In this document: positions 15,194 to 54,556 of the stretch, one piece after another
How positions within the stretch are numbered: position 1 is the first letter of the stretch
Layout: every line of letters begins with the position of its first letter
Source: Fennellomyces sp. T-0311
Lineage: Eukaryota > Mucoromycota > Mucoromycetes > Mucorales > Lichtheimiaceae
Assembly (NCBI GenBank): GCA_025266875.1
Contig: JALLLT010000008.1
Span: 868,001 to 932,000 of the forward strand
Reading direction: 5' to 3'
DNA length: 64,000 nt
Translations under genes and position numbers: made by a program
Notes under the pieces: generated by a model
Told to the model about the DNA's origin: nothing
Seen by the model: the letters and a program-made list of their open reading frames with translations, nothing else
The model's database searches: none

Positions 15194-17033
15194 TCAGAAT
15201 CTCTTAAATGATACCCAGATCATCTCTCGTTGCGTAAACGCCAAAGAACCGCCATTTACTTTGTAACCTTGTGTTTTTTTCTTTAAAAAAGTATGTGGGT
15301 CCTCTCCGTCCGTCCCATTGATAGTGATTGGGCCAAGATAAACATCTTTTAGTCTGGTAGGGCCATCGAGCAATTTGAGTACGACTAATGCGTCAACTTC
15401 TGGCACTGGTGTGTCGTTGGGAGGCATCGCTCCGACATGAAACGTATGTAAAGTGGGTAAACTACCAACCGCCGAAAGAAGACACCCAGAAATGCATCTA
15501 ATATAACACAAACGGAGAGATCGAATGGATGTTTTGCCAAGTTGCGTAACAAATTGAATTAGACCATTGTCTGTGTAAACATCGCCGAGGCATAGAAATA
15601 TTATAGACAGCTGCTCGAGCGTCGACAGGTGCGTGATCGCTTCTAAGAGCATGTCGTCGATCGAGTGTAATCTGTCAAGAGTGATGTGGCTGATCTTGGA
15701 CTCTTGCATCACCAGGTTTTGGAACGAGGCTTGATTGTAGGACAGCGCAAGGCATGAAAGTTCGAGTCGTTTCAGCTGCTTCAGCTTCTTCAATACTGAC
15801 AAGTCAAGTTGGCTTTTTCCGCCATTTTTCAATACAAGGTGCTCCAACATAGGACATTCGGGAACCGCAGCATCCCAGGGTGTAGATGATTTTTTAGGCG
15901 CATGAAGAACTAGCATGCGGAGCCGAGGAAAGTGGGACTGGCCGATCAACGAAGCCGATCCTGGAAGATACTCAATTGCAAGGAATTCCAGCGTGGCAGC
16001 GTTGCGCAAGAGGTGCGGCTCGATTTGATTTGGTCCGAGTCCCTCCTCCTCACATATAATGAAGCTACGTAATCCCGAGCAAACGCTTTCGTCCCGATGG
16101 ATCAATGTCTGTGATATTGATCGATAATCTGAAAACAATTGCCTGCCATTTGTTTCCAGCCAGATCAGTTTCGGACACCACGAAAAAACATCATCAAGAT
16201 TGTTTGCAGGAGCCGAATTTCGGTGCATGATGACATACGGAAACGTGAATCGTTGCACATAGGCGAGATACTGAAGGTTAGGGCTGTTTTTGAGAACAAG
16301 TTCAAGCGGCAGCCTAAAGTCGATAGGAATATCCATATACAAATGCGTCAGACGGATGAGTTGCGGTAGAATTGGCTGATGCTGCGTTTCAAGTCGATAG
16401 AGCCAAACACCTCCCCGTAGATGAAATTTGACAAGGTTTGGGAAAGTGTAAAAAGTGTCAAAAAGATCCATATTGGCGTATGGATCATTAATAATGAGCT
16501 GCGTTAGGTCGTTGCCACCAAGCTTCTTTATCGAGGTCAAGAGCAACTTTTTTCGCGCCGCTGATATGTTATTCGGAATTTGCACCTCTATTTATCTTAT
16601 TACTAATCGTTTTCGGTTGGGCAAGGTGTAAAGACATACCTAACGAATCGATCTCTCTAAACTGGCAGTCGACAAGCATCTGTATGATAGAGCCTAGTCT
16701 GTGGTAATCATAGTCACCAAGTTCAATACTCTTGGTGTAGTCCCGAACACAACGCTCCCATCGTGAATTGCCTTTAGGAAAGGTTCTTGTAGAGACCTTT
16801 AACTCCTTCCATACGCTTTGCAGATACTGCGGGACTGTCAGGTACCAGGAACGGCACACAGCCATGCAGGTCAAACAATCTTGCTGATTCAGGTAGGATG
16901 CAATCTCGACAATGATCTCAGTAGGCAGTGGATGGAGGAATCGTGTTGTTTCTCGTCCATTGAAATCGTTGATAGCATTTTGTACAAGTGAATTGGCGGC
17001 GGTTTCAGCTTGGATTTGGCGACGTGTCTTCAT
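15194..17033 (-). CDS. F-box/leucine-rich-repeat protein, intact
   Basis: Probable substrate receptor of an SCF ubiquitin ligase. Two exons (17033-16640 and 16587-15194) join at a 52-nt GT-AG intron to 1788 nt, 595 residues. The F-box lies at residues about 34-75: LHPLPTEIIVEIASYLNQ, DCLTCMAVCRSWY, then PQYLQSVWKEL. The rest is a leucine-rich array with repeated units such as FPNLVKFHLRGG, LPQLIRLTHLYMD, LKQLKRLELSCLAL and ISHITLDRLHSIDD. The end is KVNGGSLAFTQREMIWVSF. The pseudogene at 48978-53460 is a close relative. F-box/LRR genes of this kind are numerous and fast-evolving in Mucorales, and substrates cannot be predicted. The neighbours on both sides are decayed TPR/F-box genes of a different subfamily. 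Confidence 0.85.
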
Positions 17034-47679: not shown

Positions 47680-48600
47680 TTTAAAAAAATGTTCGGAGGT
47701 TGGTTACAAACCTTGCATTAATTTTCAGTTTCAAGAGAACCATCATCTTCTTCAACAACTGCTCCAGAATGGGCAGCGTTTCGCTGATGCTCATCACCAT
47801 AATATTTGCGTTGAATGACCGTCTTTCTCCATAGAGATAAGAGGTCGTTCGAATACGCTGCAGCAAACAGGCGGTACAGTCGATGTGCGCTTCATACTGA
47901 CATTATCTTCTTCTTGGACATTGCGCTTTGCCTTTGACTGACCAGATGGTTGTATTCTCTTCAACTAGCTCAGCCCTGAAATAGTTGTACTCCTTATAAA
48001 CTGCAAAGGTACCAAACATTACCAACATTGGCTTATGCACAGTTTGGTTGACGACCGTGTCTGGGACATAATACGTCCGTCTGGGGTGATGGTCTAAGTA
48101 ACAGTACGACTTATCAAAATATACTTCCGGTTGGATAGGCCGCTCATTACGATTCAGATTGCTCAAGCGTCTTTCCAGATATGTCTTCCTGTGGTTGACG
48201 ATGGCTTCGCTATCATGAAGAAGGTGTTGTCTTTTTTTGACATCCTATAATGAAGTCCAGCAACCTTCAAATCCTCTTTTATAAGCGAGAGAGATGGCAC
48301 ATCAAATCCTTGATCCTCGAGGTGCATGCGGATACGCTTTGCTGCGACTGGCTGACCGGTCTTGGCGCATTCTACCATGAAATTTCGAATTTCATTGACA
48401 TACTCATTCGAGAGTACCTTCCGCAGGCGACCTAGCTACTTACTTTCATCTGGCAAATTCATGTCATTAGAAAGAGTAATAATTCTTCCTGCAGTCATGC
48501 CTCCAATGCCAAAGAGGTCCTGCAACACCTTGCGCGGGGAGTCGTCGATATTTGAAGTTTCCGAGTCTTCTGTGCTCATTTACGTATCGATGAGCGATAA
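47680..48600 (-). pseudogene. IS630/Tc1-like transposase relic
   Basis: From an ATG near 48574 (MSTEDSETSNIDDSPRKV) the minus strand reads a helix-turn-helix region (RKVLSNEYVNEIRNFMVE, AAKRIRMHLEDQGFDVPS, IKEDLKVAGLHYRMSKK), then RKTYLERRLSNLNRN and a DDE-start-like segment, PEVYFDKSYCYLDHHPRRTY, where IS630-type Mucorales transposases have D-E-S-[FY]-C. The glutamate following the first Asp is Lys here. Lesions are an in-frame TAG near 48437 and a one-base frame change in a seven-A run at about 48231-48237. The remainder of the catalytic domain is not readable; the open stretch 47681-47866 may be a distorted continuation. Confidence 0.55.
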
Positions 48601-49138
48601 TAAATGAAGTCCATTCATTTCTTGTAATGCGCGCTTGAGTGTGTCTTAGTTGGGTGATGCCATTGTATGCAACGAGGCGTGTCAAGGAACACAAAAATCG
48701 CAGTCTTGACGTAGAAAAATGACATCACGAGGAAGCTCTATTAATAGGCACTTTTTGCACCCAAAATTTGTATACAATGACTTAACTCGCCTAGTTGAGG
48801 TACGTACGCCATGCCAAGCAAAAAATATCGACCCACTGCAGTGAGAACTATGGAATTGGTTTGTCCAACAAGTTGAAGGGCAGCGCAATTGTGGCCTTCG
48901 CGGGATAAGCCATTCAATTACACCAGTGCTTCGGTTGCTATGATGTATATTGATTCAAAATAAATACTGGGTGTATATTAAAGTTCAATATTTGTTAACG
49001 ATACCTTAGTCCTTCCAGTTATATACATCGAGTCGATATCCGCTATGTATCCTTGCACCTTTCCCTTAAAAAGTTTGTGGAATTCATCACTATGGGTACC
49101 TGTTGCCATGACTCCAGCAAGTCAAATATCCTTTAAGC

Positions 49139-49390
49139 GGGTGCGGTCTTTTTTTGTGGGATTTTCCAGCTTTTTTGTGTGCTTTGCCACAAATATTTTA
49201 TAGGACTTTTTCAAGGTCCGTCGCCCTGTATATTTTGTATTATAAATTTTTGGGTGGAATATTTTTGTGGGATTCTTTTTTATGGGATTTCGTTAAAGAG
49301 GATTTTTTTGTGGGACATTTTTATGGGAGAACTCATATAACGGTGCTTTTTGTGGGATTTATTTTATAAGACTGTTCTTAATGGCCCATT
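49139..49390. repeat. Subterminal array of TTTTTGTGGGA(TT) units in the MULE
   Basis: The T-run plus GTGGGA core of the terminal repeat recurs about seven times, exact or degenerate, in 250 bp (for example near 49154, 49263, 49281, 49305, 49322 and 49348), at irregular spacing and in the same orientation. The right end has only the terminal copy. Probable multiple transposase-binding sites, inferred by analogy with other DNA transposons. Confidence 0.7.
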
Positions 49391-49710
49391 TTAACATGGA
49401 TTTCGTCATTACATCTAAACTGCCCCTTTTCTACTTTATCGCCTAGGTTTTCTTACACACTGCACACAGAACTTACACACTGTAATTTACCAGAAAGCAC
49501 ACACAAAAAACGAAAGGGAATGCACTTACAAGCTATGCATAAAAGATTGAATGCACTTACTATACTGCAATACTCATCTGTTTCGATTATGAGGTGTTCT
49601 TGTATAGTTTTGTATTTAAGTATATTTTTGATTCTATTATCATGATACGTTAATAACCGGAAAACATAGATGCTAATACTGTACCTTCACAAATTGTCCA
49701 ATATTACCAT

Positions 49711-50939
49711 TTAAGTTCTACACACAGGTGCATAGAGATCATACCATCCTAGAGGTAGATTTAGGTCCTTGTTGAATTGATAGTACCCTGGATAGATCGG
49801 TGGCCACTGTATCTTTGTGATTGCTTCTTCATCCAGTACGATTGCGCGGAAATGGAAGGCAGACAGATACAGAACAATCGGGCTTTGGGGTGACGGAGGT
49901 GGTTCTTGTAAGTGTGGCAAGTATGTCATCTGGGAATCGTCGCTATAGATTACTACTGGCCGATTGTATGCCTCTGCAAGAAGACGTGGGCAATCCAACG
50001 TTTCAAAGTAGTTGTTGGAAAAGACACCCACACCTTCTGTTTGATGGCTAAGCATTCTGAGTAAATCGTCGTACTCTACGCGAAGTCCGTATCTGTAGAA
50101 CTCGCTATGCTTTTTTAAAATCGCATCCATGCACACCTTCACGAGTGGCCATTCTTGTTCGGTCCCATTCAGGACAACAGATGCTGCACGCCATCCACAA
50201 TGCCCATCAGCCTTTGGATCGTACATACCAAGCACAGCTGCTTGATCAAGGTTGAACTTCGTCATGACACCACCAGGAACAGGTCTCAAGTCCAGTCGTG
50301 CGATTGTCCACTCATTAACTCTTTTCTTTCTAAATTTCGTTATTATATAGTTAGTAGATATAGTAACATAAACCTGATACCGTATATGTTTCCCTCCAAT
50401 CTTACTTTGCTTGGGCATCACCTTCGTTCTGCTTTCTTTTTCTCGACTGACGCTCCAAAGCCTCTTTCTTCTTCTGTTGCTTCAACAGGTCTCTTCCCTG
50501 GGCCAGCTTTTCAGTAAGCTTTCGCCGCCTTTCTGATGACTGTTGCTTCCGCATTTCTTCATTCGCTCTATCCCCTTCCTTTCCTCCCTTCTTCTTCTCC
50601 TCTTCCTCTTCCTCTTCCTCTTCCTCTTCCTCTTCCTCTTCCTCTTCCTCTTCCTCGCTCCTCTTCCTCTCCTCTTCCTCACTCTTCATCCGCCCATCTT
50701 CCCCACTCTTCCTCTTCCCAGCTCCCTCACTCTTCTTCTTTCCGCCTCTCTCCCTCTCCTTTTCTTCCTCCTTGTTCTTGCCATCGCCACCTACAAAAGT
50801 AGTATAATTTAATATGACATATTAAGAACACTGTAATTTTCCATTGAACCTGTTGCGAGCAATTCTTTCGTAGTGTCAGGGGCGCGGCCATCGTTGACGA
50901 ATTTTGGCTTAAGGTTACGCTTTTTGCTAATGAACGCAT
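49711..50939 (-). CDS. Acidic coiled-coil protein with C-terminal OTU-type protease-like domain (MULE accessory)
   Basis: The minus strand reads AFISKKRNLKPKFVNDGRAP, then across a GT-AG intron (about 50854-50793) GGDGKNKEEEKERERGGKKK, a run of about 22 Glu from a TTCCTC microsatellite, and a basic coiled coil (RRRKLTEKLAQGRDLLKQQ). A second intron (about 50409-50336) joins QAK to KKRVNEWTIARLDLRP and an OTU-like domain: GMYDPKADGHCGWRAASVVL (the Asp-x-x-Cys motif of OTU cysteine proteases), NNYFETLDCPRLLAEAYNRP, VVIYSDDSQMTYLP and a late LSAFHFRAIV that would supply the catalytic His. It may be part of one gene with the transposase through a splice from the C-GT donor before YRYIG-like residues near 51030; the simple reading has a frame break between them. 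OTU domains remove ubiquitin in cells; the role within a transposon is unknown. Confidence 0.7.
50597..50657. repeat. (TCCTCT)n microsatellite encoding a poly-Glu run
   Basis: About nine uninterrupted TTCCTC hexamers, flanked by degenerate copies, inside the acidic part of the OTU-protein gene. On the minus strand it codes for glutamate throughout. Length variation would change the run without breaking the frame. Confidence 0.85.
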
Positions 50940-50978
50940 CTGTGGTTAGAACTAGGTCACATATACAGAGTTCAATAA

Positions 50979-52490
50979 TTACATTCGTGGCTTCATCTTG
51001 TCGTTAATCTTGGCGCCAATATCGATACGCTGAAAAAAGCTCCCGGTACACTGGAGATAGCTGAATATCTGCTTCAGTGTGTCGATGATTGGCTTTTTCT
51101 GCTGCACTATGCGATATAGGTCGCGATGGAAAGCCTCCACTCCATTAGTAGTGCGGGTGGAGTTTTCTTGTAGCTCCTCTTTCAGTATCCCCTTCGATTG
51201 GAATATCATTGCCGCCACTCCAGATTGCGTCCACCATTTTAGCCAGCGTTCAGAGTTCGGGAAATCGATGCGCATTTGCTGAACGGCTAACTCGAAGCTC
51301 TTCTCGCCACGGGAGTTGTACATCATACTGGCTAAGTCTTCGAAATCCGTCTCTCTTCCTGGCGCTACCACAGCATGATTGCTAGCAAGTCTTTGGACAG
51401 ACTGACACCAGTGGTGATAGCAGCCTTTCAGCAATGATTGAGGATCAATTTTACTGAAAGGGAATGTCTGCTGAAAAGCCAAGAGGAAACCATCGCGTTG
51501 AGCAAGCGAAAAGTCCATCACCAAACCAGAGAAATTTGCATCAATCTCGTCGTCATGGTATCCAATGGCAAAATCGAATGCCTTGAAGAATGCCTTAAAA
51601 TATGCTGCGAAATGAGTACTCGACAGACCATCCAATACTGCTTGGAAGATGACCGCATACTGGTCAAGTTCTTGGAAGTACATGTTTGTAGTGCACAAGT
51701 AATATCCACCAGGGAAACAGTCATAAGTAACATCCGTGAGTATGGGGTTATTCTTGAGGTCGACACGCGAAGCAATATCTGGATTACAGAAAGCAATGCA
51801 GAATTGTTGAGGCAATATATCCGCTTGTTGGATAAATCCAGGATACTCATTAGCAAGATCACCGAGTGTCAACGAGGCTAGCTCCAAAGCAGGTTTCCCT
51901 GAAGGTAGCATGTTGTTCTTCACCAGATAATTTCGTCTGTAGCGCTTGATACGTGCCTTGTGGTGGAGGTTGGGATCAATGAGTCGGATAGGGCGACTTG
52001 GATTCTGCGGGCGAATGACACTGGTGCCAACCAACAATCCTTGTGCTGTATCGGCTGGACACTCCAGAACACGTTCCTCCACCTTCTTCAAAGTTTCGAT
52101 CGGGTCGTGGAGTGGTACAAATTCGCCATGAGTATGAATGCCCGTATGCTTCATTTTGCCGCCATTGCCAGTGAACTTCATGTTCACTCTTGCACCGCAC
52201 GTAATGTGAATTAACTCGGATTTCTCGGGGCAAAAAGTGCAGCCTGCTTCGATTTGCTTGCGAATATTCGCCATGGTAGATCCTGGTCTCACCAGTTTGC
52301 CACAGCCGACCTTCGTGCACTGGACAGCACCTAAGCAAGATTTGGTGACGCTGATTCCACCAATGATCTTGTCGTAGCTTCTCTGGGTAAGCTGCCAACC
52401 AATATCCATGTCGTACACAGGTACTCCATCCTCGATATTGAGCTGGATCGTTTGGATTCTATCACCATTCGGAAAACGCGTAAATGACAT
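50979..52490 (-). CDS. MULE transposase with GCM/WRKY-type zinc finger
   Basis: Open frame of 503 residues from ATG 52490 (MSFTRFPNGDRIQTIQL). An N-terminal zinc-binding region (residues about 45-120: KSCLGAVQCTKVGCGKLVRP, CTFCPEKSELIHITCGARV, KHTGIHTHGE) has the Cys/His spacing of GCM/FLYWCH/WRKY-type fingers used for DNA binding by many MULE transposases. The catalytic core follows: first Asp in ILTDVTYDCFPGGYY, second in GLVMDFSLAQRDGFLLAF, a C-x-x-H-like GCYHHWCQSV segment, and the third acidic site in NGVEAFHRDLYRI. It lacks internal stops and lies inside intact terminal repeats, so it is a candidate autonomous element. The finger class (GCM versus WRKY-like) cannot be settled by eye. 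Confidence 0.85.
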   Translation of the reverse strand: MSFTRFPNGDRIQTIQLNIEDGVPVYDMDIGWQLTQRSYDKIIGGISVTKSCLGAVQCTKVGCGKLVRPGSTMANIRKQIEAGCTFCPEKSELIHITCGARVNMKFTGNGGKMKHTGIHTHGEFVPLHDPIETLKKVEERVLECPADTAQGLLVGTSVIRPQNPSRPIRLIDPNLHHKARIKRYRRNYLVKNNMLPSGKPALELASLTLGDLANEYPGFIQQADILPQQFCIAFCNPDIASRVDLKNNPILTDVTYDCFPGGYYLCTTNMYFQELDQYAVIFQAVLDGLSSTHFAAYFKAFFKAFDFAIGYHDDEIDANFSGLVMDFSLAQRDGFLLAFQQTFPFSKIDPQSLLKGCYHHWCQSVQRLASNHAVVAPGRETDFEDLASMMYNSRGEKSFELAVQQMRIDFPNSERWLKWWTQSGVAAMIFQSKGILKEELQENSTRTTNGVEAFHRDLYRIVQQKKPIIDTLKQIFSYLQCTGSFFQRIDIGAKINDKMKPRM

Positions 52491-53460
52491 ATCGCAGTAA
52501 AATAGCTATGATATTTGCATGACAGTGTTCCTGGCTCATCTGATAATTGAGACTGCTTTTCCTCAGGAACACGAAATTACATTCCGCAGAAGTCCCACAA
52601 AAAAACTCGCACCCCCTTTAAGCTGGTGGAGACTTTGAGCAATTTGAGTATATCGGATGCGGGTAAGCTGGTGAGCGAGGCTGACTCAACATGAAACTTG
52701 CGTAGAGTGGATACATCACCCAGTGCTGAGAGAAGAAGCTTAGTGAGTAGCAAATCCAACGAGACCGTTATTCTTGTAGTAATCGTCGAATCGACATCGA
52801 ATTGACAGAAGCTCAAGTGTTGACAAGCGAATGATTGCTTCTGGAATTATATCGTTGACTCAGTGTGTTCGACTAAGAGTAATATGATAGATTTTGGATT
52901 CCTGTATTGCCAGATTTTGAGTGGGTCATAGTGTCAAGCCCAAAAGCTCAAGTTGTTTCCGCTGCTTCGATTCCATCCGAAGTGATGCGCCAAATTAGAT
53001 TCCTTCTTCGCCTTGCAACCCAAGTTGTTCTGGCATAGGGTATCCAGGAATCACAGTATTCCACTGTATAGGTAGCAGTTAGTAGTGGTTGTATAAAGGA
53101 ATCATCATCTTTAGAATCTGGATACAAAGTCGAGTAGCTGACGCATCAGCGACGATTATCCCATGCTATACTGGATAGCAAGAAATTCTAACGGAGTGAC
53201 GCTGGGCAAGAGATATGTCTCGACTTGGTTCGATCCATACCCCATCCTTTTCATATACACTGACGCACGTGATTCCGAGCAAATCCGCTCATTGCGCTTG
53301 AGCCAGTGGACCACCATTCGCTCCCAGCGAGATCAGTTTTGGGTGCCACGAAATACAATTGTCTCTATCATGCCGTACGAACGTTGCATCTCATGTAAGC
53401 TTGGTTGGTGTGTGGTTGAATCCAAGTGGGGGGGGGGGGCAGCACTCGACTCAAGCTTGG

Positions 53461-53812
53461 CTCTGTATAGATAAGCACCGTGACACTTTGTTCTGATGGT
53501 TTAGTATCAGGATACTGTGATCATCGGCAGGAGGGGAGAAACAGAGTGGAATGCACTCCAAAGATCACAAGAGCAGGAGAGTTAAAGTTCATAAGCAAGT
53601 AGACGGGAAGAGCCTAGAAGAACACGGTGTAGGGTTACCCAAAACTGGGATACAGCGCCGAACACGTCCAAGGGAGCGGAGGCAAAGATCGGTGCGCGGA
53701 CGGTTGCGCGCGCCGGTGCCGAGCAGGCCTCGGAGTGGCTGACAGACTCAGGAACGTATATAAGCGCCGACCTTCCATATATTTTTTGGACTCTTTGAAC
53801 ACAGCCTTCATC
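53461..53812. other. Promoter-side region of ERG2
   Basis: No gene supported. The last 130 bp are GC-rich for this window (gcgcgcgccggtgccgagc near 53706) and TATA-like tatataagcgc occurs near 53757, about 55 bp before the ERG2 ATG, a plausible core promoter. Confidence 0.5.
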
Positions 53813-54556
53813 ATGACTGCAACCAAGGATGCCAAAAGTGCTTCATCCAAGTGGCCAAAGATCTTTTTCTTCCTGACACTTTTCGTCGCCATTCTTGCCG
53901 GTCTGGACTCGATCAAGGAACGCTTCTACATTTTCGACCAAGAAGTGTTGAAGCGTGTGGCCCAGGAAAACATTGCCAAACATCCAGGCGACACGAGAGA
54001 GCTCATGGCCAACATTGCTGCTGATCTTGAAAAGGAATACCCTGGTCATATCGAGTTGAAGGAAGAATGGGTGTTCAACAATGCCGGTGGTGCCATGGGT
54101 TCCATGTGGATCATCCACGGCTCGCTGACCGAGTACGTGATTTTCTTTGGCACCCCCATTGGTACTGAGGGCCATACCGGTCGTTTCTTTGCCGACGATT
54201 ACTTTATCATCCTGGAAGGTGAACAGTGGGCGCACACCGCCGGCGAGTTGGAGCGTCATGTAAGTTAACTTGGGGTTAATCAGATGAAGTGCGGGGAAGG
54301 GTTTCTTACTTTAATGGATGGATTTTAGGTCTACAAGCCCGGTGAGATGCACCATTTGCCCCGCGGCAACTGCCAGCAGTACAAGATCCCCGAACACGCT
54401 TGGGCTTTGGAGTACGCTCGCGGTTGGATCCCATTGATGCTTCCATTCGGTTTCGCCGACAGCTTGTTCTCCACCGTCGACTACCTCAGCATCGTCAACC
54501 AAGTCCGTCTCTACGGCAAATCTGTCATTTCTGAATTGCTTTCCGGCAAGATCTAA
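53813..54556 (+). CDS. ERG2: C-8 sterol isomerase Erg2 (ergosterol biosynthesis)
   Basis: ER-membrane enzyme that shifts the sterol B-ring double bond from C-8 to C-7 (fecosterol to episterol); it is homologous to the mammalian sigma-1 receptor. Exons 53813-54259 and 54329-54556 join at a 69-nt GT-AG intron to 675 nt, 224 residues, essentially the yeast length. An N-terminal membrane segment (KIFFFLTLFVAILAGLDSI) is followed by the family landmarks EWVFNNAGGAMGSMWIIHGS, EYVIFFGTPIGTEGHTGRF, DYFIILEGEQWAH, YKPGEMHHLPRG and YARGWIPLMLPFGFADSLF. The starting ATG gives the expected short cytosolic leader. Morpholine fungicides target this enzyme in fungi (established knowledge). Confidence 0.95.

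Follow-up and report, generated by a model that had tools for sequence, protein, structure and literature searches.

Introduction

Why should a DNA transposon encode a domain that resembles a ubiquitin-removing protease, and could such a domain be part of the transposase itself? The question is raised by a 64,000-nucleotide stretch of the genome of Fennellomyces sp. T-0311 (contig JALLLT010000008.1, positions 868,001 to 932,000; hereafter the window, on the contig labelled C161), in which a complete Mutator-like element (MULE) of 3476 bp occupies positions 49139–52614. A first-pass annotation of this DNA had described an OTU protease-like gene as unusual cargo of the element. On the whole, we lean towards a different reading, in which a recently active, autonomous-looking MULE would express, from one spliced gene, a transposase with a C-terminal OTU domain that acts in cis as a putative deubiquitinase. 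The 45.6-Mb assembly (182 contigs) contains many comparable arrangements, and we find this pattern across the genome of greater interest than the one element.

A complete and recently mobile element

The element is flanked directly outside its ends by CCTTTAAGC, and the left (49130–49138) and right (52615–52623) copies match exactly. In MULEs the target-site duplication is typically 9 bp long, with a range of about 8–11. The left terminal inverted repeat, GGGTGCGGTCTTTTTTTGTGGGA (49139–49161, plus strand), lies at the downstream end of the gene and is common to six young copies; the right one, GGGTGCGAGTTTTTTTGTGGGA (52593–52614, minus strand), lies at the upstream end. Both start with GGGTGCG and pair imperfectly, with small gaps, over 22–23 bp, which is short for the group. 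The size of the duplication, the terminal inverted repeats and an IS256/Mutator-related DDE transposase place the element among the MULEs. Such repeats are often long in this group. Some MULEs have none (PMC2528002).

A DNA search of the same genome for further copies returned 23 matches. Six full-length copies are 99–100% identical (0–10 substitutions per pair) and have the same ends at six different sites, with exact duplications of 9 bp in four of them (the window copy included), 8 bp in one (L005, TTATATCG) and 10 bp in one (L006, GTGCTGGCTC). Two older copies, on C108 and C174, are in pieces of 96–99% identity and differ from the window copy by 65 and 63 substitutions, respectively. The other 13 of the 23 matches comprise four relatives with 65–67% identity in the transposase part and nine that share the end region only. 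Because near-identical copies with the same ends occupy six sites, each with a duplication, the six-copy family is, judged from these sequences, the outcome of recent transposition, and the MULE is young and probably still mobile. The complete MULE with an exact 9-bp duplication that had been proposed at the outset is thus confirmed to the base. A Pack-MULE, which would consist of captured gene fragments, depend on transposase supplied in trans and have none of its own, is ruled out by the open transposase frame.

One predicted gene for transposase and OTU domain

The gene lies on the minus strand, where a 503-residue transposase frame is followed by three predicted GT-AG introns, a charged linker and an OTU frame. 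Exon 1 (50983–52490) would encode the transposase, with a GCM-like DNA-binding region at its N terminus and the DDE candidates. It is followed by intron 1 (56 nt, 50927–50982); exon 2 (50850–50926), which reads FVNDGRAPDTTK and is matched at the same place in two Circinella minor proteins, P0003 and P0006; intron 2 (59 nt, 50791–50849); exon 3 (50406–50790), the charged linker with a Glu tract; intron 3 (76 nt, 50330–50405); and exon 4 (49711–50329), the OTU-like domain with the stop codon. The predicted four-exon product has 862 residues plus the stop, in the order GCM-type DNA-binding domain, IS256/MULE-like core, charged linker and C-terminal OTU domain.

For the transposase part, the predicted model is weak (predicted local distance difference test, pLDDT, 66; predicted template modelling score, pTM, 0.37). 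Three PDB chains were matched by Foldseek at E ≤ 0.001: two chains belong to the transposase ISCth4 (best E 4.9e-4), a member of the IS256 family, and one to a DNA-bound GCM domain (5.7e-4). The candidate DDE residues, D253, D326 and E452, were placed by alignment and motif. The transposase query gave 13 protein hits and reached other genera, the named ones presumably all from Mucorales. Five of these 13 hits were scanned for Pfam domains; the GCM domain was matched by P0008 (E 4.4e-7) and nearly so by P0014 (23.8 bits, where the cut-off is 25). The Pfam MULE domain PF10551 gave no match to the window transposase at E ≤ 1, a threshold that is not by itself defining; transposases of the other MULE lineage in this genome are recognised by the profile.

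Several features suggest that these parts form one protein. The spliced frame is open in seven of the eight family copies, the exon 3 length differences are multiples of three, and only the coding frame of the C174 copy is broken. In the C108 copy (L026), intron 3 measures 200 nt instead of 76, and the roughly 124 extra bp fall inside the intron, leaving the frame open. In six of seven other loci (five diverged elements and C108; none in L048), a candidate intron likewise separates the linker from the OTU. The two Circinella proteins are single annotated proteins of 801 (P0003) and 824 (P0006) residues with transposase, linker and OTU. Since exon 2 agrees with these single proteins, the frame is open in most copies and the extra sequence of C108 is intronic, a single four-exon gene is most likely the best reading of the sequence, with the OTU domain forming the C terminus of the transposase. 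The first-pass annotation was accordingly right about intact coding regions; and on the test fixed beforehand, retention across copies, the OTU part was found in all eight, with an open frame in seven.

The annotation had also pointed to an acidic coiled coil. This segment of the charged linker partly consists of a variable microsatellite, (GAGGAA)9 at 50603–50656 of the window, and the longest Glu run in the eight copies is 20, 22, 14, 12, 10, 10, 6 and 4 residues. We therefore reject the coiled coil as a conserved part.

Predicted fold and motif residues of the OTU-like domain

In a predicted model, the OTU part matches OTU proteases in fold, and its D-G-x-C motif aligns in sequence with that of OTUD5. 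The catalytic-like residues are encoded on the minus strand at 50206–50208 (D), 50197–50199 (C) and 49852–49854 (H). These residues, D40, C43 and H158, are invariant in seven diverse paralogues that are otherwise 23–35% identical to the window OTU, and D-G-x-C is present in all 16 OTU frames compared. Ulp1, another protease type known from transposons, was not matched in the four frames scanned with Pfam, and the fold matches listed for this part are OTU. Protein searches recovered only the query itself and the C108 model with the window OTU, and only the query itself with the OTU region of P0006.

OTU-like loci beside MULE transposases

Three protein queries (75, 80 and 84 matches) were merged into 94 OTU-like loci, and 47 matches to the GCM-type transposase into 38 loci. 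PF10551 transposases gave at least 150 matches; among the matches listed, we drew a line after the first 86, since coverage of the profile changes there, and call these strong and the remaining 64 weaker; some of the last rows are fragments of other kinds. An OTU locus was taken as paired when it lay on the same strand at most 4.5 kb downstream. Under this definition, 77 of the 94 OTU-like loci lie downstream of a MULE-type transposase and 17 do not. An OTU lies downstream of 54 of the 86 strongest PF10551 matches listed (50 of these at 1.25–1.85 kb), against a chance expectation of about 0.4, and of 22 of the 38 GCM-type loci (15 of the 20 longer than 1.2 kb). OTU loci were found upstream of the strong 86 four times and on the other strand five times, and in neither position around the 38 GCM-type loci. 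The OTU domain is thus common beside the MULE transposases of this genome and best read as a transposase C terminus; in view of this pairing, the notion of rare, unusual cargo is rejected.

Two further groups emerged from the survey. For 17 OTU-like loci, no MULE transposase was detected in the 4.5 kb upstream; they could represent fragments, domesticated genes or elements that have been interrupted. The 64 weaker PF10551 matches listed score alike (mostly profile 3–96 to 3–98) and are almost free of OTU, the single case being a partial match (C131:90861) whose proper place may be among the strong ones; this group is probably a different, abundant element type.

Selection on the OTU domain was estimated between two related families, L049 (C143) and L052 (C79), both with a PF10551 transposase upstream. 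Over 211 codons, the synonymous divergence (dS) was 0.66 and the nonsynonymous divergence (dN) 0.19, a ratio of 0.29. Three relatives of L049 from among the 17 unpaired loci, L044, L045 and L046, gave ratios of 0.32, 0.29 and 0.28 against the L052 family. Pairs within families ranged from 0.20 to 0.79 on few changes, and one pair had no synonymous change. Across these two related families, purifying selection on the OTU sequence is clear. In comparisons with the window copy, the transposase exon gave a ratio of 0.32 against C108 (11 synonymous and 13 nonsynonymous changes, P 0.007) and the OTU part 0.24 against the broken C174 copy (9 and 8); against C112, synonymous sites of the OTU were saturated and gave no ratio.

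Objections and alternatives

Several observations weigh against an active OTU domain fused to the transposase, and they are set here beside the alternative readings. First, NCBI annotates the C108 copy with a separate protein, P0002, of 198 residues with linker and partial OTU, so that annotators disagree on the fusion. This model, and the predicted intron before the OTU, would suit a separately expressed helper protein outside the transposase, for which MURB beside MURA is a parallel. The spliced frame nevertheless joins the parts without a stop, exon 2 reads as a conserved transposase tail, and P0003 and P0006 are single proteins; moreover, P0002 stops before the catalytic His, yet the C108 frame runs on open. 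A helper protein is accordingly an unlikely reading, although one to be taken seriously.

Second, the position two residues after the His is not a conserved Asp or Asn (HFR in the window; HFN, HYY and HFV elsewhere), which makes the third catalytic residue uncertain, and the Pfam OTU profile PF02338 gives no match to the window OTU at E ≤ 1. Among six paralogues scanned with this profile, two give E values of 0.087 and 0.21, which fall short of the cut-off, and the sole match at E ≤ 0.001 in the genome lies elsewhere, on C124, so that the OTU-like domains beside MULEs are nearly invisible to the profile. The earlier assignment to an OTU protease-like domain stands despite the silence of Pfam, on the strength of the predicted fold together with D-G-x-C and His. 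The variable residue would also be compatible with a domain that binds ubiquitin or a partner without cutting and so anchors the transposase at ubiquitinated chromatin or at sites of repair; inactive protease relatives that only bind exist in general. The invariance of D, G, C and His in otherwise strongly diverged paralogues speaks against such a non-cutting binder, to which we give a low probability, somewhat below that of the helper protein.

Third, no OTU is in reach of 32 of the 86 strong PF10551 matches or of 16 of the 38 GCM-type loci (among the 20 that exceed 1.2 kb, 5 are without one), counts in which truncated elements and contig ends are unsorted. In addition, the window and C108 OTU parts differ by 3 synonymous and 7 nonsynonymous changes, a ratio of 0.66 (P 0.39 against neutrality). 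The dN/dS test proposed for the OTU part showed purifying selection between two related families but not in this comparison within the window family, which is indistinguishable from neutral and as such agrees with functionless captured cargo carried along by recent amplification. That the same arrangement recurs in diverged families and in another genus, that the ratio between two families is 0.29 at a dS of 0.66, and that every frame compared retains D-G-x-C make captured cargo very improbable.

Finally, the idea that the OTU works against an F-box/SCF ubiquitin response of the host is equally improbable: the genome is rich in F-box genes, as claimed at first (at least 150 matches; 549 first-look candidates), but certain fungi and plants commonly have large families of such genes, and the analysis, which went no further than the F-box count, found nothing physical, evolutionary or at the level of expression that links the OTU to them.

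Possible exchange between transposase lineages

The OTU tree has long end branches (median 0.79) and 16 rows, namely 12 further elements together with the window, C112 and the two Circinella proteins. In it, the OTUs of the window, C112 and Circinella cluster (100/99). The OTU of another element, L057 (C123:66900–69560), groups instead with the PF10551-type OTUs of C96, C13 and C131, with support (83/84) that is not strong; its best match is C96 with 142 bits, against 37 bits for the window OTU. The transposase of L057 is of the GCM type (E 1e-71 to the window transposase) and was matched by none of 11 PF10551-type transposase pieces. A tree grouped by transposase type, in which the five GCM-type OTUs are forced together, was rejected (approximately unbiased test, p 0.008), a value that flatters the case because the likeness of the C123 OTU to the other type was already known from the search scores. 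The C100 and C111 loci show a similar pattern of search scores: the PF10551-type query matched their OTUs at E 5e-24 and 1.6e-20, respectively, and the window query at 1.1e-7 and 2.0e-6.

As a lead, these observations suggest exchange or repeated acquisition of the OTU between lineages. It is possible, though we hold it with some doubt, that MULE transposition in the Mucorales employs a deubiquitinase module as a working component, and that this module has been swapped between transposase lineages. If so, moving would require the removal of ubiquitin from the transposase or its target.

Proposed role in transposition

In the reading that we prefer, a transposase with its own C-terminal OTU, the domain would be active as a deubiquitinase, or as a protease for a ubiquitin-like tag, and would act in cis during the transposition cycle. 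The most likely target would be the transposase itself, from which the OTU could strip ubiquitin, letting the protein last long enough to act. Alternatively, host chromatin or repair proteins at the excision or insertion complex could be the targets. Protection of the transposase from degradation would be plausible. We favour action in cis on the transposase or its complex; stabilisation and a chromatin or repair target are not separable here. Present in six near-identical copies, and with a transposase–OTU gene that seems intact, this young and compact 3.5-kb element makes the question testable by one cysteine change in one protein.

Subterminal boxes and genomic neighbourhood

Six subterminal TTTTT[GA]TGGGA boxes (49151–49357, plus strand) lie within the left 220 bp of the MULE. 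Allowing at most one mismatch, the window contains eight matches, seven of them inside the MULE (six on the left and one at the right end); shuffled sequence gave a mean of 1.75, and none of 100 shuffles reached 8. These boxes may be regarded as candidate transposase-binding sites.

When the flanks are joined across the insertion site, three frames of 49, 75 and 79 residues result. A 72-residue piece of one of them, the only piece scanned, had no Pfam match, and we do not claim that a gene was disrupted. About 1 kb from the insertion lies an ERG2/Sigma-1 receptor-like gene (53633–54265, plus strand; PF04622, E 8.4e-53). On the other side, a broken remnant (47869–48705, minus strand) shows 59–81% identity, in tblastn pieces, to the minus-strand frame L054:1-1356, which adjoins another OTU-MULE and matches Pfam DDE_3 (E 5.7e-10); from this resemblance, the remnant is likely a degraded Tc1/mariner-type element. 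Further away, an F-box-like domain match, one of the at least 150 in the genome, is located at 16833–16928 (minus strand; C161:884833–884928, E 4.5e-9).

Comparison with known systems

The nearest counterparts are INT45_011161 (P0003) and INT45_006780 (P0006) of Circinella minor, which have the same domain order, transposases 57% and 53% identical to that of the window, and the UniRef name OTU domain-containing protein. They were compared as proteins only, not as elements, and the P0003 model, unlike the window protein, is without the His region. At the N-terminal end, the Phantom and FAR1-like MULEs have a WRKY-GCM1-type zinc finger before the DDE core, and the window MULE likewise has a predicted zinc-finger DNA-binding domain in front of its core.

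Among the open-access papers listed in our searches, judged by title, opening of the abstract or selected passages, none reports OTU in Mutator-like elements; subscription papers lie outside this scope, and we claim no priority. A study of Puccinia notes OTU enrichment, in the relevant passages without transposon context (PMC5295586); another mentions MULEs in Mucorales, there without OTU (PMC7928374); and a text search of PMC6416283 gave no match. In plants (KI-MULEs; melon, rice and grapevine), Ulp1 sequences are found in distantly related MULE lineages, with several such lineages in grapevine (PMC2528002). Like the window MULE, these elements encode a protease for a ubiquitin-like tag beside the transposase and make 9-nt duplications; they differ in that the protease is Ulp1 rather than OTU and that its sequence follows the transposase frame, downstream of it, and may point either way.

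Ginger1 transposases resemble the window protein in having a C-terminal OTU or Ulp1 domain (PMC2836005). From these domains, Bao and colleagues proposed that the ubiquitin pathway takes part in transposition, and they also name Mutator elements as carriers of Ulp1 and Helitrons as carriers of OTU. Ginger1 differs in its Gypsy-integrase-type transposase and its CCGG/CCGT-specific duplications (PMC2836005); in the window element, the duplication is CCTTTAAGC and the transposase model resembles ISCth4 and GCM. Deubiquitinase-type domains are also encoded by Helitrons and Helentrons (PMC9741609, PMC4067079), which, unlike the window MULE, are rolling-circle elements with a RepHel protein. The VTD deubiquitinases of Helitrons, which are of another class, have been characterised, and that study, where it turns to transposons, suggests shielding of transposition proteins from the proteasome and calls transposon OTU domains untested (PMC9741609); OTU genes in Helentrons are described in PMC4067079 and mentioned in PMC6431247.

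Ubiquitin and SUMO proteases thus recur with unrelated transposase superfamilies. To the known cases, Ulp1 in plant MULEs and OTU in Ginger1 and Helentrons, the Fennellomyces element would add a variant: an OTU domain on a MULE transposase.

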